Shown here piece by piece: positions 7,685 to 21,045 of a stretch of DNA of 39,438 nucleotides. Both the position numbers and the translations under genes were made by a program. This stretch comes from a virus. The notes below the pieces were generated by a model. The model was given only the letters and a program-made list of their open reading frames with translations. It ran no database searches and was not told the origin of the DNA. Position 1 is the first letter of the stretch. Each line of letters begins with the position of its first letter. The stretch is from the IMG/VR virus record IMGVR_UViG_3300027513_000032, positions 1 through 39,438 of that record. One strand, written 5' to 3'.

Positions 7685-7885
7685 CTAACAGTAGTTACGA
7701 TGACAGCGCGGGCGGTACGGCCGTTGGCCTGCATAGGCATAGCTGCCCGAGTAGGCGTAGGCGTACCCCGGCTGCACGTACACCGGCTGGGCATACACGA
7801 CGGGCGGCGGCGCGTAGTACACGGGCGGCTGGTAGTAGCCGTAAGCAGGCATCCCGCAGAACAGTCCGATGCACAGGCCGATCAT
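7685..7885 (-). CDS. Small Tyr/Pro-rich exported or membrane protein
   Basis: 66 residues. A short hydrophobic N-terminus (MIGLCIGLFCGMPAYGYY) is followed by a Tyr/Pro-rich region with repeated Y-x-P and PPVVYAQP units, ending in a basic Cys-containing tail. AGGAGG lies about 9 nt before the ATG. Such Tyr/Pro-rich peptides occur as small envelope proteins in alphaproteobacteria, but the signal segment here is short. It is the last gene of the minus-strand operon and ends one base from the large terminase stop. Role unknown. Confidence 0.6.
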   Translation of the reverse strand: MIGLCIGLFCGMPAYGYYQPPVYYAPPPVVYAQPVYVQPGYAYAYSGSYAYAGQRPYRPRCHRNYC

Positions 7886-7914
7886 GGGCGTAGCCCTCCT
7901 GTTCGAAGTACGTA

Positions 7915-7930
7915 TTACCCCGCCGAGTAA
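7915..7930. repeat. 16-bp palindrome in operon gap
   Basis: TTACCC-CGCC-GAGTAA, in the gap between two minus-strand genes. It is identical to the copies at 3096 and 34211. Confidence 0.8.
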
Positions 7931-7938
7931 TCCCCCGT

Positions 7939-8073
7939 TCAGGGCTTATTTACGGTGTAGGGCTGGGCCCCTTTCGAGAAATACTCGTAGACCTGGCCGC
8001 CCCAGATCACCAGCAGCGTGAAGATCACGGCGACGCAGAACACCAGGATGAGCGCGCCCCCACTACGCATCAT
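7939..8073 (-). CDS. Small single-pass membrane protein
   Basis: 44 residues. It starts at ATG 8073, overlapping the TGA of the gene before it (ATGA); a second in-frame ATG follows directly. One transmembrane segment is clear (ALILVFCVAVIFTLLVIW), followed by a short polar C-terminus (GQVYEYFSKGAQPYTVNKP). The overlap and the uninterrupted frame support a real gene despite its size. Small membrane proteins of this kind in phages are sometimes holins or exclusion factors, but nothing here distinguishes these. Confidence 0.6.
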   Translation of the reverse strand: MMRSGGALILVFCVAVIFTLLVIWGGQVYEYFSKGAQPYTVNKP

Positions 8074-8321
8074 TTGGTAATATGTTTCGTTGCCCACATG
8101 ACGGCTTCTTCCATCTTGGTCTTGGCGATGGATAGCTCCCGGCTCGGTTCAAGGTGCTTGCTCATGTAGAGGACGAAGTCGAGGCCGCAGTCCTTGAACC
8201 ATTTCATGTGGGTTTTCTCGGCCTCGGTCAGCACCCGGTACTCGTGGCGCATGACGTTGTTGGTCACGCGCTGATCGGACGTCGACGGCACGAACTCGGG
8301 GTTGGTATCGGGGGGTTTCAT
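8070..8321 (-). CDS. acb2-like: Putative Acb2/Tad1-like anti-CBASS cyclic-oligonucleotide sponge
   Basis: 83 residues starting at ATG 8321 in an ATGA overlap with the Ig-domain gene. After a short variable N-terminus comes RHEYRVLTEAEKTHMKWFKD, then a second helix with SRELSIAKTKMEEAVMWATK and HIT at the end. This two-helix arrangement (YR-L-EE-...-K-G, then SREL-A-TK-EEAVMWA-KHIT) matches my knowledge of the Acb2/Tad1 hairpin family. Members of that family form small oligomers that sequester cyclic di- and trinucleotide signals of CBASS or the Thoeris-type signal, blocking host defence. The assignment is by motif recognition; no structure or binding test is available. A longer in-frame start at 8390 is less likely. 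Confidence 0.65.
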   Translation of the reverse strand: MKPPDTNPEFVPSTSDQRVTNNVMRHEYRVLTEAEKTHMKWFKDCGLDFVLYMSKHLEPSRELSIAKTKMEEAVMWATKHITK

Positions 8322-9930: not shown

Positions 9931-10156
9931 CTTAAACCCCGGATTAAATAGGGTCAATTGAAAAATACCATCCCGTATTTTGGATAGACCTGAACTCCAC
10001 CCGCCCCCCGCCACCGGCTGGCCATGTGGGGGGTGGGGGGGAGGGGGCCTGGCTATTGATAGCCCCATATTCCTGGCCGCCCCCCGCGCCCCCCGAACAA
10101 ATAGCACTAGGCTATCGGGGGATGTGTCCCCTTTTTTGGAACGGAAGGCTTACCCA
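9923..10156. promoter_or_regulatory. Divergent intergenic region with G-rich tract and dyads
   Basis: 234 bp between divergent operons. It holds an AT-rich part (9930-9985), a plus-strand tract of G6-T-G7-A-G5 (10028-10047), a perfect GGCTAT-TG-ATAGCC dyad (10051-10064) and ATAGC-ACTAG-GCTAT (10101-10115). A terminator-like hairpin follows. It is the obvious place for promoters in both directions. No convincing sigma-70 pair was found. Confidence 0.5.
10118..10137 (+). terminator. Possible attenuator or terminator
   Basis: GGGGA-TGTG-TCCCC followed by T6, 20 nt upstream of the ATG at 10157. The stem is short (5 bp). Because no plus-strand gene precedes it, it may act as a leader attenuator for the 10157 gene. 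Confidence 0.4.
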
Positions 10157-10164
10157 ATGGGTAA
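10150..10164. repeat. 15-bp palindrome with embedded ATG
   Basis: TTACCCAATGGGTAA; the ATG at 10157 is the start of the 245-residue gene. GGAAGG lies just upstream. Confidence 0.9.
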
Positions 10165-10894
10165 CGACAATCAGACGGCCCCCACGACGGGGGAGTTGCT
10201 AAACTCGACGATGCGTGACCGGATGTTTGCCAAGGTGGACGACATCGGTTTCGCGATTGCGATGGGCCGGGATGGCATGAGCGTTGCTGGCCATGACTTG
10301 AACCGGCTTTTCGTGAGCGAGCCGACAACGGACATTGCCATTGTTGGCGAGTTCTATGACCGCATTCAGACGGCGGTCACGAATGCCGCGCTGGCCAATG
10401 GGAAAACCGTCAAAGAGCAAAAGGCTAGCTCGCGCGGTACCCAAGTCAACAAGTTCGCGAACTTCGCGCTTATCGCGCTGATCCCGAACGTCAACGCTCT
10501 CCCCGCGTATGAGTTCGCTCGCGTGGAAAGCAACCTCGGCTATAACAAGCTCGTGGGCTGCATTGTGGCCATCAAGCGCGAGGTCGCCAAGGACAAGGAC
10601 GCGAGCAAGGACACCTTGTTTCAGGCCGTTCGCGACGCGTTGACCAAGGTTCCTCCTCCCCTCTCCGAGGTGGTCGAGGAGCTTGCTGAAACGTGGAACA
10701 CCTTGCGCCACGGCGACGAAAAGAAGGGCCATCCCTACGATGCGGCTTTCACGCGCCTCCTCGCGACGTATCCCGCCGACTACGCGGAACACGTCGCCCG
10801 CGCGCTGGCCGTCGTGGTCGAATGCACCAAGGCCATCGAGAGCGACATGGCACGCGCCACGGCCGCCGCCAAGCTCTCGGCTCTGTCGAGCTAG
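10157..10894 (+). CDS. Unrecognised 245-residue protein, own transcription unit
   Basis: The ATG is inside the 15-bp palindrome, giving the MGN start shared by many genes here; GGAAGG is 8 nt upstream. The protein is soluble, mixed helical, without a motif I can name (GELLNSTMRDRMFAKVDDIG, later ALIPNVNALPAYEFARVESN, C-terminal Ala-rich helix). It stands between a leader hairpin and a strong intrinsic terminator, so it is probably transcribed alone and highly. That isolation and a position next to the divergent control region suit an early takeover or regulatory protein, but this is only inference. Confidence 0.75.
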   Translation: MGNDNQTAPTTGELLNSTMRDRMFAKVDDIGFAIAMGRDGMSVAGHDLNRLFVSEPTTDIAIVGEFYDRIQTAVTNAALANGKTVKEQKASSRGTQVNKFANFALIALIPNVNALPAYEFARVESNLGYNKLVGCIVAIKREVAKDKDASKDTLFQAVRDALTKVPPPLSEVVEELAETWNTLRHGDEKKGHPYDAAFTRLLATYPADYAEHVARALAVVVECTKAIESDMARATAAAKLSALSS

Positions 10895-10911
10895 GAGCCA
10901 GGCCCCCCTCC

Positions 10912-10945
10912 CCCCGCGCGCCAGGAATGGCGCGCGGGGTTTTTT
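10912..10945 (+). terminator. Strong intrinsic terminator
   Basis: Perfect 11-bp stem CCCCGCGCGCC / GGCGCGCGGGG with loop AGGAAT, followed by T6 (10940-10945). It ends the 10157 gene. Confidence 0.9.
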
Positions 10946-10953
10946 ATGGGCTT

Positions 10954-10963
10954 CACTCTCTGA
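10954..10963 (+). repeat. CACTCTCYGA word
   Basis: CACTCTCTGA, non-coding, just after the terminator. It is the first of the one-directional copies. Confidence 0.5.
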
Positions 10964-11012
10964 CCCCCTCCCGCGCATGGGAGCCCATAAACAACCCCGC
11001 ATGGAAGGTGAG

Positions 11013-11027
11013 TTACCCAATGGGTAA
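11013..11027. repeat. 15-bp palindrome with embedded ATG
   Basis: TTACCCAATGGGTAA; ATG 11020 starts the 116-residue gene. Confidence 0.9.
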
Positions 11028-11370
11028 GGCGAACGATAGAACGTGGATGGGTGATCGGATAGGCATGGGCGACGCTAATCTGCCCAGCACGTATCAGCAT
11101 CCCAAGGACATTGCAGCGCGACGCGCGCACGCGATAGCCAGGAATGTGCAACGCGCGCACGACGAGCGCCGCGTTCCTGCTGGCCGCGTCTATCAGGTCA
11201 TCAGCGACACGAGGGGCGAGCCTGAGGTGGGCGATGTTTACCCAATGGGTAACTCCGCCATCGTCTACAATCCTAAGACCAAGTTGTGGGAACACGCGAC
11301 GTGCCTGGCAGTACAACAGCCGCTCGCCGTCACCGCCCGATTGGTCCGCAATAACCCGTACAAAAGGTGA
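11020..11370 (+). CDS. Unrecognised basic protein
   Basis: 116 residues beginning MGKANDRTWMGDRIGMGDAN at the palindrome-embedded ATG, with AAGGTG upstream. The middle is Arg/His/Ala-rich (AARRAHAIARNVQRAHDERR) and the C-terminal half is beta-like with VYQVISDTRGEPEVGDVY. A second full 15-bp palindrome lies inside the gene and encodes YPMGN, so an internal ATG in the same context could start a shorter 42-residue product. It is the last gene before the iteron region. No family recognised. Confidence 0.65.
   Translation: MGKANDRTWMGDRIGMGDANLPSTYQHPKDIAARRAHAIARNVQRAHDERRVPAGRVYQVISDTRGEPEVGDVYPMGNSAIVYNPKTKLWEHATCLAVQQPLAVTARLVRNNPYKR
11238..11252. repeat. 15-bp palindrome inside gene, in-frame ATG
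   Basis: TTACCCAATGGGTAA, encoding YPMGN in the 11020 gene. The ATG at 11245 is in frame and could be an internal start. Confidence 0.9.
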
Positions 11371-11733
11371 ACCACCTACAATATTTAATTCGTGTAGATG
11401 GTTTAGAGGCGATTGTGTAGACGGCAGCACACTCGCTAACTCATTGAAATCCTATATATATTATATAATGTAATAATATAATCATACCATCTACAGTAAA
11501 TTAACCCTTTCATAGCGCGAGGGCTGGCCCGCCGTGTAGATGGTTTGCGGATTAATTAATAATTAATTCCAGACCATCTACAAATCGGGCCCCCTCTCCA
11601 ATGATACAGTGTTGATTTACTGTAGATGGTGTGGGTTCGATTGTTACCCAATGGGTAACCCTTTGATCTAACACCATAATAAAATTGTGTTACCCATCTA
11701 CACTTTCGCCTCACAACCATCTACAGGTAACAA
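11371..11733. other. Iteron-like AT-rich non-coding region, candidate replication origin or control locus
   Basis: 363 bp without a gene. The 10-mer ACCATCTACA or its complement TGTAGATGGT occurs exactly at 11393 (-), 11486 (+), 11535 (-), 11573 (+), 11621 (-) and 11716 (+). Close relatives lie at 11371 (ACCACCTACA), 11416 (TGTAGACGGC) and 11693 (CCCATCTACA). The pair at 11486 and 11621 extends to a 16-bp inverted match (ACCATCTACAGTAAAT). Two AT-rich cores lie between copies (11451-11484 and 11551-11569), the second flanked by the inverted pair 11535/11573. One 15-bp palindrome sits at 11644. Repeats next to melting-prone DNA are typical of phage origins, but no DnaA box is seen. Confidence 0.7.
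11644..11658. repeat. 15-bp palindrome in iteron region
   Basis: TTACCCAATGGGTAA, non-coding, between the iteron copies at 11621 and 11693. Confidence 0.9.
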
Positions 11734-11919
11734 ATGAAAAAGAAAATCTATTTCTACACCAACCAGCATGGCCAGCCAGTCCGCGCGGTATACGAGGATC
11801 TGCCGGGGATAGTTAAGGCCAGGGTTGATTGGTTAAAGTGGAAGCGAAAACAAAAGCTTAACCGCGTCCGCAGGGAGCGCGAGGCGCGTGCTGTTCAACT
11901 CAGAAAGGACAAGCCATGA
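11734..11919 (+). CDS. Small very basic protein
   Basis: 61 residues, starting MKKKIYFYTNQHGQPVRAVY and ending in a Lys/Arg-rich helix (WLKWKRKQKLNRVRREREAR), a likely nucleic-acid binder. It is the first gene after the iteron region and overlaps the next gene (ATGA). Position makes an origin or RNA-related role possible, but no family is recognised. Confidence 0.6.
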   Translation: MKKKIYFYTNQHGQPVRAVYEDLPGIVKARVDWLKWKRKQKLNRVRREREARAVQLRKDKP

Positions 11920-12098
11920 CTATTGTCTACGCTATTGCGGGCCTAGCCGCATTTATCTTGGCGCTGGCCAGCATCGGCCGTCACTCTCCGAAACCCCCCG
12001 TCATCATCAAGCCAGTGGTGATGCGTGAAATAACAAATCATGCGCCAATTATTTTGCGCAATGTTATTACCAATGTGCGGTGGCCTATCAACGAATAG
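11916..12098 (+). CDS. Small single-pass membrane protein
   Basis: 60 residues; N-terminal membrane segment (IVYAIAGLAAFILALASIG) then a 40-residue tail rich in Pro, Ile and Asn (PPVIIKPVVM, ITNHAPIILRNVITNV). Starts in an ATGA overlap with the basic protein upstream. Function unknown. One CACTCTCCGA word is inside it. Confidence 0.6.
   Translation: MTIVYAIAGLAAFILALASIGRHSPKPPVIIKPVVMREITNHAPIILRNVITNVRWPINE
11992..12001 (+). repeat. CACTCTCYGA word
   Basis: CACTCTCCGA inside the 11916 membrane-protein gene, read as HSP. Confidence 0.5.
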
Positions 12099-12106
12099 CC
12101 GCGCGG

Positions 12107-12163
12107 GTGCAGTTTCCTGCACATCCGTTCCGGTACAGCAGCACCGCTATTGCTGTACCGGAA
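12107..12163 (+). other. Two tandem hairpins between genes
   Basis: GTGCAG-TTTC-CTGCAC (12107-12122) followed by a perfect 13-bp stem TTCCGGTACAGCA / TGCTGTACCGGAA around a 10-nt loop (12128-12163). There is no T-run, so it is more likely an RNA-processing or stability element than a terminator. Confidence 0.6.
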
Positions 12164-12184
12164 TAACTACCCGTTTGTCAACCC

Positions 12185-12199
12185 TTACCCAGTGGGTAA
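12185..12199. repeat. 15-bp palindrome with embedded GTG
   Basis: TTACCCAGTGGGTAA; GTG 12192 is in frame with the 96-residue gene. Confidence 0.9.
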
Positions 12200-12482
12200 C
12201 ACAATGGCCAAGCTAAAGTTCTCCGACATCTCGGCACTCGCCAGGATAACCAACACGAGCGAGGGAATACTTCCCTACGGTAATTCGTGGCGCGAGGATG
12301 CGACTACGCGCAAGCCGATTGATCCCGAGGGCGAGATAGAGGCCGTGACGATTTACGGCTCGCACCTCACCCTCACCGAGTTCGACAACCTCATGCGCGA
12401 CCTCCACGGCTTCCAGTTCAAGTGGGCCAAGGATGGGTGCGGAACCTATCTCCGCATCAGTGCCGACCGTGTGGAGTTCTAG
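12192..12482 (+). CDS. Unrecognised 96-residue protein
   Basis: GTG inside the palindrome gives MGNTMAKLKFSDISALARIT; ATG 12204 is a downstream alternative, and neither has a strong ribosome-binding site. The product is a small mixed alpha/beta protein (AVTIYGSHLTLTEFDNLMRD, then FKWAKDGCGTYLRISADRV). It lies just after the two hairpins. No family recognised. Confidence 0.6.
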   Translation: MGNTMAKLKFSDISALARITNTSEGILPYGNSWREDATTRKPIDPEGEIEAVTIYGSHLTLTEFDNLMRDLHGFQFKWAKDGCGTYLRISADRVEF

Positions 12483-12554
12483 ATGCGCGACCTCAGAAAT
12501 GCCATCGCTGATTTCATCGTGTTCTTAATCGAGTTAGTAACGGAGGTGATGTGA
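12483..12554 (+). CDS. Possible 23-residue peptide
   Basis: ATG directly follows the TAG of the gene upstream, with GGAG 6 nt before. The peptide MRDLRNAIADFIVFLIELVT plus EVM is amphipathic and its TGA overlaps the next start (ATGTGATG). It may simply couple translation of its neighbours. Confidence 0.35.
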   Translation: MRDLRNAIADFIVFLIELVTEVM

Positions 12555-12715
12555 TGCGTGAGGAACTAGAGAAGATGCGGCGCGAGCAGGCTATTCGTGC
12601 CCAGCGCCGTGAGAAGGCTCGCCGCGAGCGCGAGATGTTCGAAATGAGCGGGTTGATCCGGTTCATGTACCAGGTCGAGCCGCCCTGCCCGCCTTCGACG
12701 GGTGATGACGACTAG
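12554..12715 (+). CDS. Small highly charged helical protein
   Basis: 53 residues, starting at an ATG overlapping the previous stop by one base, with GGAGGTG upstream. Residues 1-30 are an Arg/Glu-rich helix (MREELEKMRREQAIRAQRRE, then KARREREMFEM), followed by a short hydrophobic part and a Cys/Pro-containing acidic tail. Possibly a nucleic-acid or coiled-coil partner. Unrecognised. Confidence 0.5.
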   Translation: MREELEKMRREQAIRAQRREKARREREMFEMSGLIRFMYQVEPPCPPSTGDDD

Positions 12716-12719
12716 CAGG

Positions 12720-12734
12720 TTACCCATTGGGTAA
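12720..12734. repeat. 15-bp palindrome, intergenic
   Basis: TTACCCATTGGGTAA, five bases after the stop of the 53-residue gene. Confidence 0.9.
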
Positions 12735-12799
12735 CTAGAGGGGAGGTGCGCCATTGCGTTAAACCTAGCGGTCTATCGAGGCCTGAACATGCTGACACG

Positions 12800-12814
12800 T
12801 TACCCACGGGGTAA
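12800..12814. repeat. 15-bp palindrome, intergenic
   Basis: TTACCCACGGGGTAA, about 105 bp upstream of the 12920 gene. Confidence 0.85.
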
Positions 12815-12919
12815 TGCGGCATGGGCCACGCGCTAAACGCGCTCGCTTAGTTGCGACGGTGTGCATCCCTTCATGCGAATGAGGGGGTGCAGCCCGACTT
12901 AACTAGGAGGTTAGTCATC

Positions 12920-13087
12920 ATGGATACCATCATCGCTGCGCTCATCTTGCTAACACTTGTGCTGGCTCTTGTGGCGTTCGCCACTATGGGCCTCACTCTC
13001 CGACGCCCGCTATCCCGCGCCTTCGCGTGGATCGTGTTCGGCGTTTACTTCGGCGTGTTCGCCATCACCTGTCAGTTGGTGTTCTGA
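12920..13087 (+). CDS. Small two-helix membrane protein
   Basis: 55 residues; TAGGAGG precedes the ATG at a good distance. Two membrane segments are visible (TIIAALILLTLVLALVAFA and FAWIVFGVYFGVFAITCQLV) separated by a short Arg-rich loop (RRPLSRA). This hairpin shape is shared by class II holins, but the gene is far from any lysis gene, so other membrane roles are equally likely. Overlaps the next gene by one base (TGATG). Confidence 0.6.
   Translation: MDTIIAALILLTLVLALVAFATMGLTLRRPLSRAFAWIVFGVYFGVFAITCQLVF
12994..13003 (+). repeat. CACTCTCYGA word
   Basis: CACTCTCCGA in the 12920 gene, read as TLR, a different frame from the 11992 copy. Confidence 0.5.
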
Positions 13088-13263
13088 TGCGTAACACCAT
13101 GAATGCCGAGCAGCACTTCAATCGCGCGCTCGACCTCGATACCGAGGCCAAGGCGATGGTTGTGCTGGGCGACCTGATTGCGGCTGAGTATTTCCGCCGC
13201 GAAACCAACTGGCATCTCGCCTGCGCTGCTAACCTCGAACGGGAGGGCTTACCCAATGGGTAA
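13087..13263 (+). CDS. Small helical protein ending inside a palindrome
   Basis: 58 residues (MRNTMNAEQHFNRALDLDTE ... REGLPNG). The TAA stop is the end of the 15-bp palindrome at 13249, whose ATG starts the next gene, so the two genes overlap by 8 nt through the motif. The helical sequence with repeated Ala/Leu/Asp resembles a short TPR-like hairpin, but this is not firm. Unknown function. Confidence 0.55.
   Translation: MRNTMNAEQHFNRALDLDTEAKAMVVLGDLIAAEYFRRETNWHLACAANLEREGLPNG
13249..13263. repeat. 15-bp palindrome: stop of one gene, start of the next
   Basis: TTACCCAATGGGTAA. TAA (13261-13263) ends the 13087 gene and ATG (13256-13258) begins the next; GGGAGG is just upstream. Confidence 0.95.
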
Positions 13264-13384
13264 CCTCATGCTGACCTTCACCGCCATCGTGCTGATGGGG
13301 GTGGCGGCCGTCACCGATAACCTGTGGATCATGGCCGCTGGTGGGGTGCTTCTCCTCATCCGGCTAGTCAGGTGCTACCTATGA
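13256..13384 (+). CDS. Small membrane protein
   Basis: 42 residues starting at the palindrome-embedded ATG (MGNLMLTFTAIVLMGVAAVT), with GGGAGG 9 nt before. Two short hydrophobic stretches flank DNLWIMAAGG; the end is basic (RLVRCYL). Likely membrane-bound. Its TGA overlaps a 9-codon ORF (13381-13410) leading into the next palindrome. Confidence 0.55.
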   Translation: MGNLMLTFTAIVLMGVAAVTDNLWIMAAGGVLLLIRLVRCYL

Positions 13385-13395
13385 ACACCAGGAGG

Positions 13396-13410
13396 TTACC
13401 CAGTGGGTAA
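13396..13410. repeat. 15-bp palindrome with embedded GTG
   Basis: TTACCCAGTGGGTAA with AGGAGG directly abutting its left arm; GTG 13403 starts the 72-residue gene. A 9-codon ORF (13381) stops at its TAA. Confidence 0.95.
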
Positions 13411-13621
13411 GGATCCAATTACCGATCTGCTGGCCAGCATTGCCGGTACATCGTTCGACAACCAGTTCGACGTGGTGAGCGCCTATCTCAGGCGTCTCCC
13501 TGCGAAGGAATGCCTCGACTTCTTCAAGCATCCCGCCGCCAGTGCGTGGATGGACGCCAACGTGAAGGCCATCAACGAGAAGGCCCGCATCCCCGTATCT
13601 CATGGAGGACCAAAGCCGTGA
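13403..13621 (+). CDS. Unrecognised 72-residue protein
   Basis: GTG start inside the palindrome, with an ideal AGGAGG 7 nt upstream, so the palindrome's left arm is exactly the ribosome-binding spacer. The product is MGKDPITDLLASIAGTSFDN followed by helices (VVSAYLRRLPAKECLDFFKH, then AWMDANVKAINEKA). It ends in a GTGA overlap with the next gene. No family recognised. Confidence 0.65.
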   Translation: MGKDPITDLLASIAGTSFDNQFDVVSAYLRRLPAKECLDFFKHPAASAWMDANVKAINEKARIPVSHGGPKP

Positions 13622-14175
13622 AACTATCGCATTACTCTCCGATACCGCTGACGCACGGGCGCTTGCTGCCCAAAAATATGTTGGCCGAAGGCCAACACGC
13701 ATGGGGGATGAAGCCATCGGGACTATGGGTGTCGGTGGACGGCGATGATGACTGGGCAGCATGGTGCCAGTCCGAGCAGTTCGGCCTCGAAACCTACAAG
13801 TTCAAGCAGCGCATTACCCTTCGGAGTAACTCGCTCATAGGTATATGCGAGCCCGCAGGGCGAGGTGTGCTGCACCTCGATGCGCCTATTCAGATCCTGC
13901 GCTTCGATGAAATCTACGCATCGGACGAAAGCCGTTATGGCGGGATCAACTGGGCCAAGGTGATGGACGACTATGACGGTATCATCATCGCGCCCTACCA
14001 GTGGTCGCTGCGCCTCGATGGTCCCTTTTGGTACTACTCGTGGGACTGTGCATCAGGCTGCATCTGGAACACCGAGGTGATCGAGAACATCAGCGAGCCC
14101 GAGCCGGTTACTTGGATCAACCCGTGGACTGATGAGCAGCAGGCCGCTGATGAGGAAGGGTTACCCCGTGGGTAA
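13618..14175 (+). CDS. Unrecognised 185-residue protein
   Basis: GTG start in a GTGA overlap with the previous gene, GGAGG upstream. The N-terminus (LSHYSPIPLTHGRLLPKNML, then KPSGLWVSVDGDDDWAAWCQ) resembles small phage proteins related to ADP-ribosyltransferase-like or NUDIX-adjacent families of the form LYHYS-...-KP-GLW-S, seen here only as a general likeness. The rest is aromatic (YDGIIIAPYQWSLRLDGPFW, then WDCASGCIW). Its TAA is the end of the palindrome at 14161. Function not assigned. Confidence 0.6.
   Translation: MKLSHYSPIPLTHGRLLPKNMLAEGQHAWGMKPSGLWVSVDGDDDWAAWCQSEQFGLETYKFKQRITLRSNSLIGICEPAGRGVLHLDAPIQILRFDEIYASDESRYGGINWAKVMDDYDGIIIAPYQWSLRLDGPFWYYSWDCASGCIWNTEVIENISEPEPVTWINPWTDEQQAADEEGLPRG
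13633..13642 (+). repeat. CACTCTCYGA-like word
   Basis: TACTCTCCGA, one mismatch from the consensus, in codons 6-9 of the 13618 gene. Confidence 0.4.
13814..13829. repeat. 16-bp palindrome inside gene
   Basis: TTACCC-TTCG-GAGTAA, read as ITLRSNS in the 13618 gene. Confidence 0.8.
14161..14175. repeat. 15-bp palindrome: stop of one gene, GTG start of the next
   Basis: TTACCCCGTGGGTAA; TAA ends the 13618 gene and GTG 14168 starts the next. GAGGAAGGG abuts the left arm. Confidence 0.95.
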
Positions 14176-14392
14176 GGTTCACTTCGTTGGCGTGACGCCG
14201 CGCCAGTACTGGTCGGCAATGCGCGTATGGGGTACGCCCGATAGCGTCTATCCCAGCGCAACATGGTCGGTCATGGGGGACATCCCCGGTGAGGACGACG
14301 TGGTGCTGGGCGAGCAGGCCTTCCCTATTCCGCGCAAGTGGAAGGGGCGCAAGCGCCTGCCGCTCACCGCGCACGGTTACCTGAAGGAGTAA
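14168..14392 (+). CDS. Unrecognised 74-residue protein
   Basis: GTG start in the palindrome (MGKVHFVGVTPRQYWSAMRV). A small protein with two conserved-looking turns (VWGTPDSVYPSATW, MGDIPGEDDVVLGE) and a basic end. It overlaps the preceding gene by 8 nt through the palindrome and precedes a small basic gene by 6 nt. Unknown function. Confidence 0.6.
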   Translation: MGKVHFVGVTPRQYWSAMRVWGTPDSVYPSATWSVMGDIPGEDDVVLGEQAFPIPRKWKGRKRLPLTAHGYLKE

Positions 14393-14398
14393 GTAACT

Positions 14399-14536
14399 AT
14401 GGCAGGCATCAAAAAGGGCACGCTCGTTGCGCCCAAGACGGCGTCATCGTGGTGGAAACACATGCGGCCGTTCGGCAAGAAGCAGTTTTGGAAGTCACAA
14501 CGCGCTGCGGCGCGCAAACAACAGGAGAAAACATGA
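14399..14536 (+). CDS. Small basic protein
   Basis: 45 residues, very Lys/Arg-rich (MAGIKKGTLVAPKTASSWWK ... QFWKSQRAAARKQQEKT). It begins shortly after the previous stop with AAGGAG upstream and ends by TGA overlapping the next start (ATGA). Probably nucleic-acid binding; no family known. Confidence 0.55.
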   Translation: MAGIKKGTLVAPKTASSWWKHMRPFGKKQFWKSQRAAARKQQEKT

Positions 14537-15315
14537 GTACGGCAACCGACATCACCTTGTCATGCGGCTTCTGCGCGGGCGACATCGCGGTCCCCGACGT
14601 AGCCGACCGGACGTGCCAGCAATGGCAATGCCCCAACTGCGATAGTTGGAACAACTGGATGAAGACGACCACCCAGGATGACGACGCGACGGCGAATGTT
14701 ACCCAGCGGGTAAACCAACGCTTCAACGTCTGCGCCACGGATGGCGCGCCCATCCCCGACAGCGTGGTCGAGGGCAGGGGCGGCGTGATCGACCACTCGG
14801 AGAATATCCCGCCCGAGTTGTTCGGTAAGTTCGCAGCCGAAATTCAGCACATCGCCAACCGCAGGCCCGTGCTGCCAGGCATGGGCAAGTCCAAGGCCAT
14901 GAAGAAGTGGCTGAAGAAGGGGAAGAAGGGGAAGCTCAAGTGGAAGAAGCTCAAGGCCGTGAAGATCAAGCCCGGTGACATGACGGGATTTCTTACCCCG
15001 TCGAGTAACCCGCCCGAGTTCAGGATGCCGCCGTGGTATCGGCCCGATCCGGTTACCCAACGGGTAACGTGGGATCTGCGCGATACTGAGGGCGACCTTC
15101 ACTCTCCGAGTTGGTACCTCGACGCCTATCTGGTCGCGCGCCAGGAATATCAGGAAGCATGGCAGAAGGTATCCAACGCGGGTGACGATAACTCGCATGA
15201 TGCCGCATTGGACTATGCGTTGGAGGAACTCGACCGATACGGCACCTACATCAATAAGCTGTTCGGATCGGACATGGTGGACGGCGTGTGGAACCGTTCG
15301 GACGAAGATCAATAA
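14533..15315 (+). CDS. Zinc-ribbon protein of unknown function
   Basis: 260 residues; ATG at 14533 preceded by CAGGAGAA. The N-terminus has a four-Cys zinc ribbon (CGFC at about 11-14 and CPNC at about 33-36), the middle (about 120-150) is a Lys-rich linker (KKWLKKGKKGKLKWKKLKAV), and the C-terminal half is acidic and aromatic (SPSWYLDAYLVARQEYQEAW, then LDYALEELDRYGTYI). Three palindromes lie inside it, each read in frame (VTQRVNQ, LTPSSNP, VTQRVTW). It may bind DNA or RNA. Confidence 0.65.
   Translation: MSTATDITLSCGFCAGDIAVPDVADRTCQQWQCPNCDSWNNWMKTTTQDDDATANVTQRVNQRFNVCATDGAPIPDSVVEGRGGVIDHSENIPPELFGKFAAEIQHIANRRPVLPGMGKSKAMKKWLKKGKKGKLKWKKLKAVKIKPGDMTGFLTPSSNPPEFRMPPWYRPDPVTQRVTWDLRDTEGDLHSPSWYLDAYLVARQEYQEAWQKVSNAGDDNSHDAALDYALEELDRYGTYINKLFGSDMVDGVWNRSDEDQ
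14699..14713. repeat. 15-bp palindrome inside gene
   Basis: TTACCCAGCGGGTAA, read as VTQRVN. Confidence 0.9.
14993..15008. repeat. 16-bp palindrome inside gene
   Basis: TTACCC-CGTC-GAGTAA, read as LTPSSN. Confidence 0.8.
15053..15067. repeat. 15-bp palindrome inside gene
   Basis: TTACCCAACGGGTAA, read as VTQRVT, 60 bp after the 16-bp copy. Confidence 0.9.
15100..15109 (+). repeat. CACTCTCYGA word
   Basis: CACTCTCCGA in the 14533 gene, read as HSPS. Confidence 0.5.
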
Positions 15316-15318
15316 ACC

Positions 15319-15333
15319 TTACCCACTGGGTAA
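15319..15333. repeat. 15-bp palindrome upstream of gene
   Basis: TTACCCACTGGGTAA, three bases after one stop and 19 nt before the ATG at 15353. Confidence 0.9.
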
Positions 15334-15352
15334 CAACACAGGAGAAAGAACT

Positions 15353-16048
15353 ATGGCTGATATTATGTCGATGCTGTCGAACAGCGAAGCCGAGAAGCAG
15401 GCTGTCCTGCAACAGTGCGAGGATTTCGGCAAGCGTGAGGGCGGCGGTGCCGCAGCGCGTGCGAACCTCTACGTGAGCCTCACGGAACTGGCCAAGTCCA
15501 AGGCCATCGACGTGACCAACGCGCCCGAGTGCTGGGATCGCTTCGACAAGGGTGTTTCCCTTGGTGCGTCCATGATCGGCGGCGTGAAGGAGGGCAAGGA
15601 TCCTGAGGATACCCGCAAGGTCCGCATCAGCGAATGCCGCCAGTTCCTCAAGCTTGGCGGCCTGCTGTACGTGGACGGGGTGGAAGTCCTCGACCGTGCC
15701 GTGGCCATCATCAAGCAGACGCGCCTCGATGGCCGTCTCAAGATGAAGCCAACCGACGCCATGATCGCTGTGGCGCGGGCTCAGAACAACGACGAGCAGA
15801 ACGCCTTGGAGGATGAAACCATCGAGACGGTCATCCAGCCCAAGGAAGGCCCGGATAAGGTCGAGGCGGATGCCCTGTTCTCGGTCCACACGGCGCTGGA
15901 GCGCATCGTCAAGAAGTTCGAGGAAAGCGACGACGTGCTGACCGCGATCAACTGTGTCGCGCAGCGCATCCAGGCTCTCGGCGGTACGTCGCGCGCCCAG
16001 AAGGCGGCCAAGGCCGCCGCCAAGAAAGCGGCCAAGGGCAAGAAGTAG
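15353..16048 (+). CDS. Unrecognised 231-residue protein with basic Ala/Lys tail
   Basis: ATG 15353 with CACAGGAGAAAG upstream. A helical, charged body (MADIMSMLSNSEAEKQAVLQ; later RVRLD-type helices KQTRLDGRLKMKPTDAMIAV) ends in a 20-residue KAAKAAAKKAAKGKK-type tail like those of histone H1-like and other nucleoid proteins. The tail suggests DNA binding. The rest is not recognised. Confidence 0.65.
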   Translation: MADIMSMLSNSEAEKQAVLQQCEDFGKREGGGAAARANLYVSLTELAKSKAIDVTNAPECWDRFDKGVSLGASMIGGVKEGKDPEDTRKVRISECRQFLKLGGLLYVDGVEVLDRAVAIIKQTRLDGRLKMKPTDAMIAVARAQNNDEQNALEDETIETVIQPKEGPDKVEADALFSVHTALERIVKKFEESDDVLTAINCVAQRIQALGGTSRAQKAAKAAAKKAAKGKK

Positions 16049-16053
16049 GCTCG

Positions 16054-16068
16054 TTACCCGGTGGGTAA
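16054..16068. repeat. 15-bp palindrome upstream of gene
   Basis: TTACCCGGTGGGTAA. The GTG inside is not in frame with the next gene, which starts at ATG 16074, 6 nt after the palindrome. Confidence 0.9.
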
Positions 16069-16073
16069 GCATC

Positions 16074-16328
16074 ATGGGCAAGGCCCGTAAAGCGCCAAAC
16101 TTGGCAGAAGTCAGAAGCATCGTCAGGGATCTCGGTGGCCAGGTCACCGAGGTTCTTGACGGTAATCGCCATGTGCGCGTCCGCGTGGTTACTCGGCAGG
16201 GTAGCCAACTGACGCTCACTCTCTCAAAGGGCAAAACCGAGCCGCACAAGCTCAAGGGCTGGACGCGGCAGGAATTCAATCGGGCTGATGCGGCCCGTGA
16301 AAGGAGCAACGATAATGGCCAACAGTAA
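16074..16328 (+). CDS. Small basic protein, weakly HicA-like
   Basis: 84 residues (MGKARKAPNLAEVRSIVRDL ... NRHVRVRVVTRQGSQLTLTL ... ). The pattern of an N-terminal helix, then G-x-H-x-x-V-x-V and a beta-strand ending in a small polar turn, recalls double-stranded-RNA-binding-like folds such as HicA. The expected HicA catalytic His context is not clear and no HicB partner is adjacent, so I leave it unassigned. Overlaps the next gene by 14 nt. Confidence 0.5.
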   Translation: MGKARKAPNLAEVRSIVRDLGGQVTEVLDGNRHVRVRVVTRQGSQLTLTLSKGKTEPHKLKGWTRQEFNRADAARERSNDNGQQ

Positions 16329-16548
16329 GCGGGCAGCCAAGCCCAAGAAGATGGAGCCGACGTGGTTGGTGCATTTCCACTACGGGCCTCATGCCCTACC
16401 GCTGACCGTGTACGATAACCACGACGGTACGTACACCTACGCCGACGACGACAAGTGGATGCGTGATGCCAGTGCCGAGGAAGTGCTGAAGGTGTTTACC
16501 CATCGGGTAAACAGCCTGGTCCTCGACCAACAGCGCCTCAAGGGCTGA
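16315..16548 (+). CDS. Unrecognised 77-residue protein
   Basis: ATG 16315 with GGAG upstream, overlapping the gene before it. Basic N-terminus (MANSKRAAKPKKMEPTWLVH) and a beta-rich core (HALPLTVYDNHDGTYTYADD). A 15-bp palindrome near the end is read as FTHRVNS. Unknown function. Confidence 0.55.
   Translation: MANSKRAAKPKKMEPTWLVHFHYGPHALPLTVYDNHDGTYTYADDDKWMRDASAEEVLKVFTHRVNSLVLDQQRLKG
16496..16510. repeat. 15-bp palindrome inside gene
   Basis: TTACCCATCGGGTAA, read as FTHRVN in the 16315 gene. Confidence 0.9.
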
Positions 16549-16550
16549 AC

Positions 16551-16913
16551 ATGCACGCCCTGCACCACGCCAGATCCTCGGCAAAAAAATGGGGCGGCGA
16601 GCCCCATGAGTACCTGCCGTTCCACGAATGGTTTGACGAAAGCAAGACGCATCTTGCGGACGTGCGGCATCGCGCGTTGCGGCATCATTCACTGGGGATC
16701 CAGCAGCTTGTGGAGAAGTTCGGCAAGTATTTCGTGAACAGTGCAGGGAAGACCGTGCCGGTGGCGTACATCGGGGAGCAGCATGTGACGGAGGATCTCG
16801 GCTGCATCCCGACGTTCGCTGACTGGATGCGCGGCATGAAGATGGAGAAATGGATGAGCAAGCCGGGGAAGTACTCTCCGGGCGGGCTCACCATCAAAAC
16901 CGTGAAACTCTAA
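16551..16913 (+). CDS. DUF6915-like protein
   Basis: 120 residues, starting MHALHHARSSAKKWGGEPHE, then YLPFHEWFDESKTHLADVRH and later GEQHVTEDLGCIPTFADWMR. The order of MHA-HHA-SSAKKWGG, HEWFDESK-H-AD-RHRALRHH and GEQHV-EDLG-IPTFADW is the pattern I know from DUF6915, found in phages and mobile DNA of proteobacteria. Many His and Trp residues suggest metal binding, but no activity is known. It starts 2 bases after the previous stop. Confidence 0.75.
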   Translation: MHALHHARSSAKKWGGEPHEYLPFHEWFDESKTHLADVRHRALRHHSLGIQQLVEKFGKYFVNSAGKTVPVAYIGEQHVTEDLGCIPTFADWMRGMKMEKWMSKPGKYSPGGLTIKTVKL

Positions 16914-16924
16914 CACACAGGAGG

Positions 16925-16939
16925 TTACCCAATGGGTAA
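16925..16939. repeat. 15-bp palindrome with embedded ATG
   Basis: TTACCCAATGGGTAA with AGGAGG directly abutting its left arm; ATG 16932 starts the 230-residue gene. Confidence 0.95.
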
Positions 16940-17624
16940 GGTTGATCTGCAACACCTAAAGGCGGCAATGGTGCTGGCCTTGGACAGCACGCAGGCGCAC
17001 ACGACAGCCCAGTGGTGGTCGGGTGTGGTCTACGACATGGAGAAGGAACAGGTGATCGTCCTCCAGGTACCGAAGGACTATACCGACAAGGCCATCAAGG
17101 TGCTGAAGGGCTATGGCGTGTACAACGAATGGGTCGAGGGGAGTTCGTTTAACCTCCTGCCCATTCGCGTCGAGCATCTGGAGAACTGTCTTACCCATCG
17201 GGTAACCCGCAAGTGGGCACCCACGGATGAGGCGCATGGCCCGTTCAAGAAGGACGTGATCGACCGGATGGACGATCTCGGCATCGGCTATCTGAGGATG
17301 AGTTACTCGGGTTCGGGTGACAGCGCCAACGATGACGAGTGGAACTGTTCGCGTATGGGCGGGGACGAGTGGTATCCGAGCGACTGGCATTCCCCCGAGG
17401 GTAGGCATTGGCGCGAGCAGTCGAGCCATGTGATCCCTGATGATCTGCAACACCTGATTTCCGAGTACGTGTGGGAAACCCTGGTGCAGTACGATTGCGT
17501 CAACAACGATGGCGGTGGCGGCGATCTGACGATCAATGCGACCGAGGATGAACCGGAGTTCCTGTTCTCCTGCTACACCAACGAGATGGTGTCGACCAAC
17601 CACCACGCCGACGATCCGATCTGA
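16932..17624 (+). CDS. DUF6878-like C-terminal protein
   Basis: 230 residues from the palindrome-embedded ATG (MGKVDLQHLKAAMVLALDST). The C-terminal half carries YSGSGDSANDDEW and DCVNNDGGGGDLTINATEDE. That combination (SGSGDSG in one strand, then NNDGG-G in a beta strand near the end) is how I remember DUF6878, a small phage/plasmid family without known activity. The N-terminal half (about 1-90) is not recognised. A palindrome at 17191 is read LTHRVTR. Confidence 0.6.
   Translation: MGKVDLQHLKAAMVLALDSTQAHTTAQWWSGVVYDMEKEQVIVLQVPKDYTDKAIKVLKGYGVYNEWVEGSSFNLLPIRVEHLENCLTHRVTRKWAPTDEAHGPFKKDVIDRMDDLGIGYLRMSYSGSGDSANDDEWNCSRMGGDEWYPSDWHSPEGRHWREQSSHVIPDDLQHLISEYVWETLVQYDCVNNDGGGGDLTINATEDEPEFLFSCYTNEMVSTNHHADDPI
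17191..17205. repeat. 15-bp palindrome inside gene
   Basis: TTACCCATCGGGTAA, read as LTHRVT in the 16932 gene. Confidence 0.9.
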
Positions 17625-17625
17625 G

Positions 17626-17640
17626 TTACCCAATGGGTAA
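17626..17640. repeat. 15-bp palindrome with embedded ATG
   Basis: TTACCCAATGGGTAA, ATG 17633, just after the stop of the previous gene; no strong Shine-Dalgarno. Confidence 0.9.
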
Positions 17641-17935
17641 GTACTGGCCTGTCATCATGTGGTTCCACACGATCACCAAGGACGGTATGTGTTACATACC
17701 GTCCCAATTGCACCACAAGGACAACAAGGTCGTATCGTGCATAACCTACGAAGATGCGCTCTTGTATGCCTTGCGGCGTATCAAGCCGCAAAGGAGGAGC
17801 GAAGGTCAATCAGGCATCGCTACACCTGTGTTCATTCCTTGGGTAGTCGAAGGAGAACGACCTGACGTTTCGAGTACCAGCACTCTCCGACTGCTGGTGA
17901 ACCGTATCGATCTAACAAATGAAGATGTAACTTAA
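17633..17935 (+). CDS. Unrecognised 100-residue protein
   Basis: MGKYWPVIMWFHTITKDGMC from the palindrome-embedded ATG. Beta-rich start, then a helix (TYEDALLYALRRIKPQRRSE) and a more disordered C-terminus. It precedes the MoxR-like ATPase by 17 nt. No family recognised. Confidence 0.55.
   Translation: MGKYWPVIMWFHTITKDGMCYIPSQLHHKDNKVVSCITYEDALLYALRRIKPQRRSEGQSGIATPVFIPWVVEGERPDVSSTSTLRLLVNRIDLTNEDVT
17881..17890 (+). repeat. CACTCTCYGA word
   Basis: CACTCTCCGA in the 17633 gene, read as TLRL. Confidence 0.5.
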
Positions 17936-17952
17936 CCACAGGAGAATTTAAC

Positions 17953-19059
17953 ATGCTTTTATCGCAGATGATGGAAGAACTGCGTGGGCTCGTTGATGCG
18001 GGCATCGCAGTCGAGATTGCCTCGTCACCCGGCGTGGGCAAGTCAGACGCGACAGTCGATTGGGTCCATCGGCAGTCGGAACTCGACGGGTTCGAATGGG
18101 GCCTCAGCACCACCATGCTGGCGACCCAGACGCCGGTCGATCTTCTCGGCTACCTGATCCCCGGCTATCGCGAGGTGAAGGATCCCGAGACGGGTGAAAT
18201 TACCAAGGTGCGGATTTCCGAGTTCACCATGCCGACGTGGTATGTGAGCGACAAGGGCATCCCACTCTCCCACTACAAGCGCGCCCTGATCCTGCTGGAC
18301 GAGGCGGATAAGTGCGAGCCTGATGTATCCAAGACCTCGGCCGAGATCCGGCTGAAGCGTCGCCTTGGCCCGTGGGCTCTGGACCGCAAGGCGGTGGGCT
18401 GCGTGTCGCTGGTGAACCGTGTCGAGGATCGCTCTGGCACGGGCAAGAAGTTCGACTTCATCATCAACCGGCAGGCTGAGTTCCAGGTCTTGGCGGACGT
18501 CGAGGGCTGGCGCGACTGGGCTCTTACCCATGGGGTAGACCCCCTGTTCATCGCCTTCGCGTCGAAGTACCCCGAGGTGGTGTTCTCGAACAAGGTGCCC
18601 GACAAGCAGGGGCCGTTCTGCACCCCTCGCTCGCTGGTCAACCTCAGTCAGGTGTTACCCAAGCGTGTAACCCCGGACGGCAAGATGAAGGTCGACAGCA
18701 TCGCCAATGAGATCATCACGGGTATGATCGGGCAGGCTGCTGGTATGCAGCTTCATGCGTGGATGAAGCTCCGCCATGAGACGCCGGATTGGGATGACAT
18801 CCTGAAAGATCCTTCGGGCATCGGCATCCCGGCCAAGCCCGACGCCCAACTGATGACGTGCTACGAATGCGCCCATCGGGTGGATACCAAGACGGCGGGC
18901 AAGGCGGTGACGTTCATCAAGCGTCTCCCGGCCCAGTTCGCCGTGACCTTCGCGAAGGCCGCAGTTCGCAGGAACTACGACCTCATCAACACGCCTGCGT
19001 TCATGGATTGGGTGGCGAAGAATGCTTCGCTCCTCAACGCCATCGGTGGGGCCAAGTAG
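17953..19059 (+). CDS. MoxR-type AAA+ ATPase
   Basis: 368 residues with Walker A SPGVGKS (25-31), Walker B ALILLDEAD (111-119) and a GYLIPGYREV region before it. This arrangement belongs to MoxR/RavA-type AAA+ ATPases, chaperone-like enzymes that usually act with a von Willebrand A (VWA) partner in metal insertion or complex remodelling. The partner is plausibly the VWA protein at 19655, with two small genes between. CAGGAGAA precedes the ATG. The substrate in phage infection is unknown. Confidence 0.85.
   Translation: MLLSQMMEELRGLVDAGIAVEIASSPGVGKSDATVDWVHRQSELDGFEWGLSTTMLATQTPVDLLGYLIPGYREVKDPETGEITKVRISEFTMPTWYVSDKGIPLSHYKRALILLDEADKCEPDVSKTSAEIRLKRRLGPWALDRKAVGCVSLVNRVEDRSGTGKKFDFIINRQAEFQVLADVEGWRDWALTHGVDPLFIAFASKYPEVVFSNKVPDKQGPFCTPRSLVNLSQVLPKRVTPDGKMKVDSIANEIITGMIGQAAGMQLHAWMKLRHETPDWDDILKDPSGIGIPAKPDAQLMTCYECAHRVDTKTAGKAVTFIKRLPAQFAVTFAKAAVRRNYDLINTPAFMDWVAKNASLLNAIGGAK
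18524..18538. repeat. Imperfect 15-bp palindrome
   Basis: TTACCCATGGGGTAG, last base differs from the family; read as LTHGVD in the MoxR-like gene. Confidence 0.5.
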
Positions 19060-19062
19060 GTC

Positions 19063-19077
19063 TTACCCAGTGGGTAA
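19063..19077. repeat. 15-bp palindrome with embedded GTG
   Basis: TTACCCAGTGGGTAA; GTG 19070 starts the 83-residue gene. Confidence 0.9.
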
Positions 19078-19321
19078 ACCCAAGAAGCACAAGTGGAAGG
19101 TGCGGAACTACCGCACCTCCACGATGCCGTTCAAGGATGGTGAGCGCGCGATCTATCGGTACAACACCGACGAGATCACGTTTCGCACTCTCCGAATGGC
19201 CCGCGAGAACTCCTGCCGACACCGGGGGACTTCGACCGACGTGCGCCTCGCTGGCGGAATTAGTGAGCGCAAGCGACGGGTCGTCGAGCTACAGCTTTGG
19301 CCCGATAACTCGGACGAGTAA
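19070..19321 (+). CDS. Small basic protein, C-terminus shared with 21063 gene
   Basis: 83 residues from the palindrome GTG (MGKPKKHKWKVRNYRTSTMP), Arg/Lys-rich, ending in WPDNSDE. The last codons TAACTCGGACGAGTAA form a variant palindrome that includes the TAA stop, and the same 3' end occurs in the gene at 21063. So the gene starts and ends in motif copies. No family known. Confidence 0.6.
   Translation: MGKPKKHKWKVRNYRTSTMPFKDGERAIYRYNTDEITFRTLRMARENSCRHRGTSTDVRLAGGISERKRRVVELQLWPDNSDE
19186..19195 (+). repeat. CACTCTCYGA word
   Basis: CACTCTCCGA in the 19070 gene, read as TLRM. Confidence 0.5.
19306..19321. repeat. Variant palindrome TAACTC-N4-GAGTAA at gene end
   Basis: TAACTCGGACGAGTAA; its last TAA is the stop codon. 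Identical to the copy at 21326. Confidence 0.75.
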
Positions 19322-19331
19322 CTTCGCCCGC

Positions 19332-19359
19332 CTGTAAGCCCACGCCCGGGGGCTTACAG
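19332..19359 (+). other. Intergenic hairpin
   Basis: CTGTAAGCCC / GGGCTTACAG, 10-bp perfect stem with an 8-nt loop, between two genes and without a T-run. It may mark RNA processing or a weak Rho-type end. Confidence 0.5.
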
Positions 19360-19373
19360 CAAGGAACACGGCT

Positions 19374-19658
19374 ATGTCAACAATACTGTTCTACACCGAA
19401 GGAAAGGACACAGGAGAAATGGCTACCAAGGTCTTCCACATCGAGCTTCGCGTGCCGGGGGTTACCGATCCGGCCAAGCACGAAGCCCTCAAGAACGCGG
19501 TGCGTATCCACGCACGAAACCTAATGGGTACGGCGATGCTGGTGGTCGGCAACGACACCAAGCCTGCTATCGCAGCGTACTCAGAGGACTTCATCATCGG
19601 CCAAGATAAAATCATGGTCGATACCGACAACACTGACGAGGAGAACATCGGAGCATGA
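19374..19658 (+). CDS. Unrecognised 94-residue protein
   Basis: ATG 19374 has AAGGA 8 nt upstream; ATG 19419 right after CACAGGAGAA is an alternative giving 79 residues. The product (FHIELRVPGVTDPAKHEALK ... FIIGQDKIMVDTDNTDEE) is a mixed alpha/beta protein with an acidic end. It overlaps the VWA gene by 4 nt and lies between the two halves of the MoxR/VWA pair. Confidence 0.55.
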   Translation: MSTILFYTEGKDTGEMATKVFHIELRVPGVTDPAKHEALKNAVRIHARNLMGTAMLVVGNDTKPAIAAYSEDFIIGQDKIMVDTDNTDEENIGA

Positions 19659-21043
19659 GCGTAGTTACATCCAAGGGTAACCCCGTCGAGCTTGATCCCA
19701 AGCTCAAGGCGGGTCGGTTTACCCGAGCCAAGCTGACGCCGCAGCAGCAGCGCCAGTGGAGCGAAACCCTGGCAGCGATCAACTGGATCGCACCGGGGTA
19801 CACCCATCTCCTGTACACCATGATGATCCAAGACGACGGCATCACCGTCGCCATGTTCACCGAGGATCTGCCGCCCCATTGTTGCGCCGCCACCGACGGG
19901 GTGCAGCTTATCTTCAAGCCGAGCGAGTTCTTCGCGCTCACGCTGATGGAGCGGGTGTTCGCCGTGCTGCATGAGATTACCCACTGCGTGGGCGATCATT
20001 GCGGCATGGGGTACCAGATGAAGAAGCGCGGGCATATCGTCATGGGCAACAAGAAGCTCCCGTACGATGCGACCCACTCCAACATCGTGCAGGATCTCAT
20101 CATCAACGACATGCTGATCGAGAGCCAGTTCGGTACCTTCAAGAAGGGCTGGCTGCACGATAAGTCCCAAGCGACCTACATGGACGACTGGGTGGAGGTC
20201 TACTTCAAGACCTACAAGAAGCGGGGCAAAAAGCCGCCGCCCCCTCCGGGTACTGAGCCGCCGTGCGAGGACGGCGAGGGCGGTGAGGGCCAAGGCAAGG
20301 GAGGTACCCAGCCGGGTAACCAGCCCCATGGTGGGTTCGACCAGCATCTGGATCCGGGCGAAAGCCAGGGGAAAACCCCTGAAGAACTGCCGCCGCGCCC
20401 TGTCCAGGAATGGCAGCAGGCCGTGGCTGGGGCATTGGAGGTAGCCCGAGCGCACGGCAAGGCACCGGCAGCGTTCGAGAAGCACTTCGGGCAGATGCTG
20501 GAGCCCAAGGTGGACTGGACCGAGCATCTCAGGGCGCTGGTAGCCCGCAAGGTGGGCTCAGGTGGGTGGGATTTCAGGCGGCCTGATCGTCGCCTGATCG
20601 TGCGGGATATTGTCTCTCCCGGCCGCTCCGGCTTCGGCGCTGGCGTGGTGGTCCTTGGGCTCGATACGTCGGGCTCGATCTTCGGTGATCCCACTCTCAT
20701 CAACCGCTGGCTCGCTGAATTGACCGGCATCATGCAGGACGTGCGGCCCAAGCGGGTGATCGTGGTCGAGTGCGATGCTGTCGTTCAACGGGTTACGGAA
20801 CTGATGGACGAAAGCGACATCGCCCGCATCGAGGTGATGAAGGGCGGCGGGGGTACCTCGTTTGATCCGGTGTTCCAGTATATCAAGGACAACGAGATTG
20901 ATCCTGACGCCCTGCTGTACCTGACGGACGGCTTCGGTGGGTTCCCCACTTCGGCCCCCAAGTACCCTGTCATCTGGGGCAATATATCGGGACCGACAAC
21001 GCCCTACCCGTTCGGTGACGTCGTTCAAGTCCCGGTCGAGTAG
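19655..21043 (+). CDS. Metallopeptidase-like / VWA-domain protein, MoxR partner
   Basis: 462 residues. The N-terminal domain has a zinc-protease HExxH (H106-E-I-T-H110 in VFAVLHEITHCVGDH) as in the putative metallopeptidase domain found with VWA-like DUF2201 proteins. A Pro/Gly-rich linker (about 190-240) follows. The C-terminal VWA-like domain has a MIDAS DTSGS (337-341), Thr401 in GGGGTSFDP and Asp425 in YLTDGFG. This is the classic partner architecture of MoxR ATPases. It overlaps the preceding gene (ATGA). Confidence 0.85.
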   Translation: MSVVTSKGNPVELDPKLKAGRFTRAKLTPQQQRQWSETLAAINWIAPGYTHLLYTMMIQDDGITVAMFTEDLPPHCCAATDGVQLIFKPSEFFALTLMERVFAVLHEITHCVGDHCGMGYQMKKRGHIVMGNKKLPYDATHSNIVQDLIINDMLIESQFGTFKKGWLHDKSQATYMDDWVEVYFKTYKKRGKKPPPPPGTEPPCEDGEGGEGQGKGGTQPGNQPHGGFDQHLDPGESQGKTPEELPPRPVQEWQQAVAGALEVARAHGKAPAAFEKHFGQMLEPKVDWTEHLRALVARKVGSGGWDFRRPDRRLIVRDIVSPGRSGFGAGVVVLGLDTSGSIFGDPTLINRWLAELTGIMQDVRPKRVIVVECDAVVQRVTELMDESDIARIEVMKGGGGTSFDPVFQYIKDNEIDPDALLYLTDGFGGFPTSAPKYPVIWGNISGPTTPYPFGDVVQVPVE

Positions 21044-21045
21044 GC

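Follow-up and report, generated by a model that had tools for sequence, protein, structure and literature searches.

Repeat array between two rightward genes

This report concerns an intergenic element at positions 11371–11733 of the viral record IMGVR_UViG_3300027513_000032, which was analyzed over its full 39,438 nucleotides (hereafter the window). The window is a 39-kb fragment of a soil phage from a group with genomes of ~60–65 kb that includes Rhizobium and Bradyrhizobium members, and it carries genes for capsid, portal, terminase, a family-A type DNA polymerase of the phage replication set (22766–24670, + strand), an SNF2-type helicase, a RecB-like exonuclease and a 1012-residue primase-helicase (33025–36063, + strand). 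The element lies between genes at 11020–11370 and 11734–11919, both transcribed rightward, and contains a 10-bp iteron, ACCATCTACA, repeated six times exactly and three times inexactly within 11371–11725. Matches with at most one mismatch number nine in the whole window against 1.19 ± 1.10 expected, a count reached in none of 100 shuffles, and the sole such match beyond the cluster (position 4109) has one mismatch. No further cluster of at least five identical 8-mers within 400 bp was found in the window. Coordinates and shuffles bear out the original prediction, made from the sequence alone, of six exact and three near copies in both orientations within 355 bp; its statement that the word is not repeated elsewhere stands apart from the one inexact match. 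Two AT-rich cores, a 16-bp extended inverted match (11486/11621), a 15-bp palindrome inside the region and a shared direction of the flanking genes are likewise present as it described. Absent from that account was the concentric mirror geometry of the array.

All but one of the nine iterons fall into four pairs in opposite orientation, mirrored within 1 bp about a common centre at ~11558.5, an arrangement that arose in none of 3000 random placements. From the outside inward, an exact copy at 11393–11402 (− strand) is partnered by an exact copy at 11716–11725 (+), a near copy with two mismatches at 11416–11425 (−) by one with a single mismatch at 11693–11702 (+), an exact copy at 11486–11495 (+), extended by GTAAATTAAC, by an exact and likewise extended copy at 11621–11630 (−), and an exact copy at 11535–11544 (−) by another at 11573–11582 (+). 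Successive spacings of the eight are 23, 70, 49, 38, 48, 72 and 23. Only the near copy ACCACCTACA at 11371–11380 (+, one mismatch) is unpaired. Since eight of nine iterons are mirror-paired about one centre, the array is a single nested, concentric, imperfect palindrome of ~355 bp. Its inverted arms, which surround an AT-rich core, share that centre (11383–11424 with 11694–11735, 79%; 11483–11508 with 11608–11633, 88%; 11519–11547 with 11570–11598, 76%). In self-comparison the region matches its own reverse complement at 107 bits, compared with a maximum of 42 in 100 shuffles, and the folding energy of its single-stranded DNA form is −73.3 kcal/mol, compared with −31.1 ± 3.4 for shuffles (z = −12.5).

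The array region also has the highest AT content in the window and contains its deepest AT stretch. An AT-rich segment at 11454–11485 (TATATATATTATATAATGTAATAATATAATC and neighbors) is a candidate unwinding element, such segments recurring in relatives, and the centre of the array is occupied by an AT-rich palindrome, GGATTAATTAATAATTAATTCC (11546–11571). With its concentric inverted repeats about a palindromic centre, the array is similar to the tos sites of N15-type phages, and the element could on that ground be the hairpin-telomere site at which a protelomerase would act on a linear plasmid-prophage. We consider this extremely improbable: the palindrome at the centre is both short and imperfect, the protelomerase family PF16684 had no match in the window and six related records in a search in which the control genome was positive, and the terminal overlaps found in two related genomes (G004 and G006) are those expected of circular maps.

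The same position in related phages

Relatives were collected through the terminase and include Rhizobium phages RHph_TM3_14A, TM27A, TM27B and TM29, Pseudomonas phage Rollin, more than 80 IMG/VR contigs and two Bradyrhizobium assemblies. Single-sequence queries returned eight relatives for terL and none for either the primase or a 245-residue protein encoded at 10157–10894, while alignments of terL and of the primase succeeded. Most relatives with enough sequence have a deep AT trough 1–7 kb downstream of terL, and in all six long genomes this trough is the genome-wide AT minimum. In L126, whose terminase is 84% identical, the same place holds a 341-bp palindrome (7776–8116) built from mirrored copies of a different word, GTTGCCCAAA; it scores 151 bits against a shuffle maximum of 36.7 (0 of 100 shuffles), with a fold z of −13.9. 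Words of their own also lie near the trough in L136 (GGAGATGAAAC), L142 (CTTGTGTCC), L164 (AGTTACCGGGAAAAGTAAC), L173 (TAAGAATTAAGAATT) and L131 (CGTGATAAA), and even close relatives with terminases 84–88% identical differ in iteron word or layout at this place. The same layout with a different repeat word suggests, as far as sequence comparison goes, fast-changing origin recognition. Over 31 troughs the fold z ranged from −9.5 to +1.3 with a median of −2.7, compared with a mean of −0.9 (standard deviation 1.4) in controls (p = 3e-6).

The top word common to the troughs, AT runs aside, is CTAACCCATTGA. In the form TAACC[CT][AT]TTGA it was counted 14 times across 39 scanned loci, always within ~310 bp of the trough and 13 times on the same strand. 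When as many as two mismatches are allowed, the motif is present in 15 of 31 troughs and 22-fold denser inside them than outside, an enrichment that is somewhat optimistic because the motif was discovered and scored on the same loci and the trough centres, which also served for the fold scores, were partly set by eye. The window has two copies, CTAACTCATTGA at 11436–11447 (+, one mismatch), left of the AT-rich segment, and GTAACCCTTTGA at 11655–11666 (+), whose complement carries an integration host factor (IHF)-like core, ATCAANNNNTTR.

At the DNA level, scanning IMG/VR for exact 14-mers gave unspecific results, the paired iteron pattern appeared in four other contigs as isolated pairs with no array, and no DNA similar to the element was found in plasmids. 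Pseudomonas phage Rollin (L135) has, at positions 1–500, several 25–27-bp units of inverted repeat that face both ways; they lie close to the AT minimum (~901) of its first 50 kb and may represent a similar origin.

Divergence between relatives is also what phage-specific operators would display. The mirrored sites could form a transcriptional control hub, bound by a phage regulator of the rightward early genes that begin at 11734, given that the array stands directly upstream of this cluster and that a second operator-like palindrome (11644) is found within it. The original prediction had offered such a regulatory hub beside an initiator-binding origin and a partition site, and it is still a rival, if a rather unlikely one. 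An operator cluster needs neither a genome-wide AT minimum nor mirror symmetry over 355 bp, and the genes on either side share one direction. A promoter scan gave a single sigma-70-like match in the region, no better than expected by chance and on the minus strand, although alphaproteobacterial or phage promoters may escape such a scan, and no HTH_3 repressor scored above cut-off in 14 related records (sub-cut-off matches only). Gene negatives of this kind are weakened by the partly fragmentary state of the related records, of which RHph_TM3_14A was deposited complete and several others measure 58–65 kb.

Terminase-binding and attachment sites can hold repeated inverted sites as well, and the element could on that ground serve in packaging (pac/cos) or in recombination (attP). 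We give this very little credence. A distance of 3.7 kb and several other genes separate the element from terL, and the related records gave no tyrosine integrase and, for serine recombinases, only Resolvase matches below cut-off.

Iteron arrays are a typical form of plasmid centromere, and the two Bradyrhizobium assemblies contain stand-alone contigs of this phage group of ~60 kb (L215, NZ_JADPKS010000067.1, 61,049 bp; L216, NZ_PSRT01000042.1, 60,568 bp), which suggest carriage, or contamination, without integration. Both facts would fit a partition site of an extrachromosomal prophage. This part of the original prediction is nevertheless disfavored, and such a site now seems very unlikely, because no ParB_N, AAA_31 ParA-type or tubulin/TubZ match was obtained in 14–15 related records, where ParM/ParR were not searched by family. 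Nor is there any sign of lysogeny in these records, which yielded neither an integrase nor an above-cut-off HTH_3 repressor.

The candidate initiator

Binding tests had been proposed for the small basic proteins encoded at 11734 and 12554. Homologues of these were found in none of five relatives tested, and both were set aside; the product of 33025–36063 is a better candidate. This 1012-residue protein combines an N-terminal archaeo-eukaryotic primase (AEP)/PrimPol-like domain, a DUF927 helicase and a C-terminal winged-helix-like domain. Profile comparison matches it to a protein of a Staphylococcus aureus pathogenicity island (SaPI; 8tch_A, E 8e-18), to Cch of the staphylococcal cassette chromosome mec (SCCmec; 5dgk_A, E 9e-17) and to a PrimPol (6zp9_A, E 1e-4), and DUF927 (PF06048) is found in 14 of 14 homologues. 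Judged by these matches, it is a PrimPol-DUF927 helicase related to the SaPI and SCCmec initiator helicases. The homologue in RHph_TM3_14A (L133, 42239–45322) is publicly annotated as a putative integrase; the profile matches say primase-helicase. The C-terminus is probably a winged helix according to its structural model, which has a core predicted local distance difference test (pLDDT) score of 83–90, a b-b-a-a-b-b order of elements and fold matches mostly to winged-helix DNA binders, including residues 465–553 of Cch (Z 3.7). Foldseek gave no match to the model under E 0.001. The Rep_3 type of iteron plasmid initiator was also considered and rejected, with no PF01051 match in 15 records. 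Positions 11300–11800 gave no match to the DnaA-box consensus.

A probable replication origin

Among the three readings originally offered, an initiator-binding origin is the best supported because of the conserved position, the AT minimum in relatives, the mirrored phage-specific iterons and the primase-helicase gene. We think it probable that the element is the replication origin of the phage and that it is bound by a phage initiator, most likely the 1012-residue PrimPol-DUF927 helicase. The best reading is a theta-type origin in which iterons for a phage-specific initiator flank DNA-unwinding AT elements. Under this model, we infer that the initiator would bind the mirrored iterons through its winged-helix-like C-terminal domain, and that the symmetric array would load two helicase assemblies facing in opposite directions. 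These assemblies would melt the AT-rich segments at 11454–11485 and/or 11546–11571, the built-in PrimPol would prime, and the phage family-A polymerase would extend both ways. The CTAACCCATTGA-type motif may be an auxiliary site, possibly one for IHF-like bending.

Several observations weigh against this interpretation, in addition to the shared loci behind the motif scores. The troughs are not all strongly palindromic: of the 31, roughly half have a fold z above −3, and that of a close relative, L125, is only −1.1. GC skew over the whole genome, proposed originally as a check, did not single out the trough: the skew minimum coincides with it (within ~3 kb) in just two of six genomes and is 18–24 kb off in the other four, and we dropped GC skew as an origin marker owing to this inconsistency. 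The element (11.4–11.7 kb) and the initiator gene (33.0–36.1 kb) are more than 21 kb apart. The C-terminal model has a mean pLDDT of only 66 and its fold matches are weak (Z 3.3–5.0). Covariation between iterons and this domain could not be shown, and the domain has diverged at a rate only a little above that of the remaining protein (median identity 26% vs. 34%), so a hypervariable C-terminus was abandoned as proof of the iteron reading.

Tentatively, and with more doubt than confidence, we raise the possibility of a folded hypervariable origin, in which the mirrored layout, with arms that change together, and the short motif would be kept and the recognized word would be replaced between close relatives. 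Initiator recognition would then have been swapped repeatedly, perhaps under attack from origin-directed defenses or satellites, or the arms would stay matched through hairpin-templated copying. Because close relatives differ in their iteron words or layouts, both initiator-origin co-evolution and origin swapping are directly testable. The element offers a candidate origin for a large and nearly unstudied group of ~60-kb phages found in nitrogen-fixing soil bacteria (Rhizobium, Bradyrhizobium), where cultured members exist, and our literature search found no description of an origin in this group.

Other features of the early region

The 15-bp palindrome that overlaps the element, TTACCCAATGGGTAA (11644–11658), is one of ~22 copies at gene boundaries and probably belongs to a regulatory system separate from the array. 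Copies of TTACCCANTGGGTAA number 22 in 10150–21650, where they lie at the borders of rightward early genes, and one more occurs at 35453; in ~10 cases an ATG or GTG start codon stands at the centre (e.g., 10157, 11020, 16932 and 17633). This boundary palindrome also changes between relatives, as L126 uses TTACTCANTGAGTAA, L136 GAGTTACTC..GAGTAACTC and L140 TTTCCCAGTGGGAAA. It recalls the start-associated sequences of cluster K mycobacteriophages. The 245-residue protein at 10157–10894, not assigned to a family, starts inside such a palindrome, and its identity of 29–36% in the closest relatives, compared with 80–88% for the terminases, indicates that it is fast evolving. An ATPase followed by a VWA-like metallopeptidase-domain protein (DUF2201), encoded at 19655–21043 and 17953–19059, forms with it a MoxR/VWA-like pair that is also annotated in RHph_TM3_14A.

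Comparison with known systems

Iteron origins with AT-rich DNA are already well known; what is new here is that, in a PrimPol-DUF927 phage, mirrored iterons occupy a fixed position and change in identity. Repeated or inverted initiator sites beside AT-rich DNA are a feature of phage P4 (alpha/ori) and of herpesviruses (oriL and oriS), read by a winged-helix domain in P4 and by a separate origin-binding protein, UL9, in herpesviruses. The differences are that P4 alpha has a Toprim primase and that herpesviruses depend on UL9.

The initiator of plasmid pRN1 (AEP, superfamily 3 helicase and winged helix) is of the same PrimPol-helicase-winged-helix type as the candidate described here, and the sequence of its stem-loop origin varies between relatives while pairing is kept (PMC4234260). 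The pRN1 stem-loop, however, is ~100 bp long, lacks iterons and comes just after rep, whereas the window element covers 355 bp with eight mirrored iterons and lies far from the gene. In the PLE (phage-inducible chromosomal island-like element) satellites of Vibrio cholerae, origins have been swapped under an origin-directed nuclease (PMC8263062). Different iteron sets at the same place in close relatives are reminiscent of this, although a nuclease driver is known for PLE and none for the phage group of the window.

The SaPI origins and the DUF927 group of Rep helicases offer the comparison closest to the proposed mechanism. SaPI Rep recognizes an iteron origin via its C-terminal domain, and DUF927 is part of Cch, a relative of SaPIbov1 Rep (PMC7581432). 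Multiple short iterons with element-specific words are common to both systems, as would be an initiator helicase that loads itself and binds DNA through its C-terminal domain, for which the window protein is a candidate by its profile matches to 8tch_A and 5dgk_A. Unlike in SaPIs, the window iterons are mirrored into one palindrome, PrimPol is fused to the helicase, and the carrier is a ~60-kb phage and not a satellite. The SaPI origin is found directly downstream of rep, and the distance of more than 21 kb between element and initiator gene breaks this defining feature; thus, we do not class the element as a SaPI-type origin and propose only that it may work like one. By this analogy, the PrimPol-DUF927 replicases of phages would be linked to SaPI-type iteron initiation.
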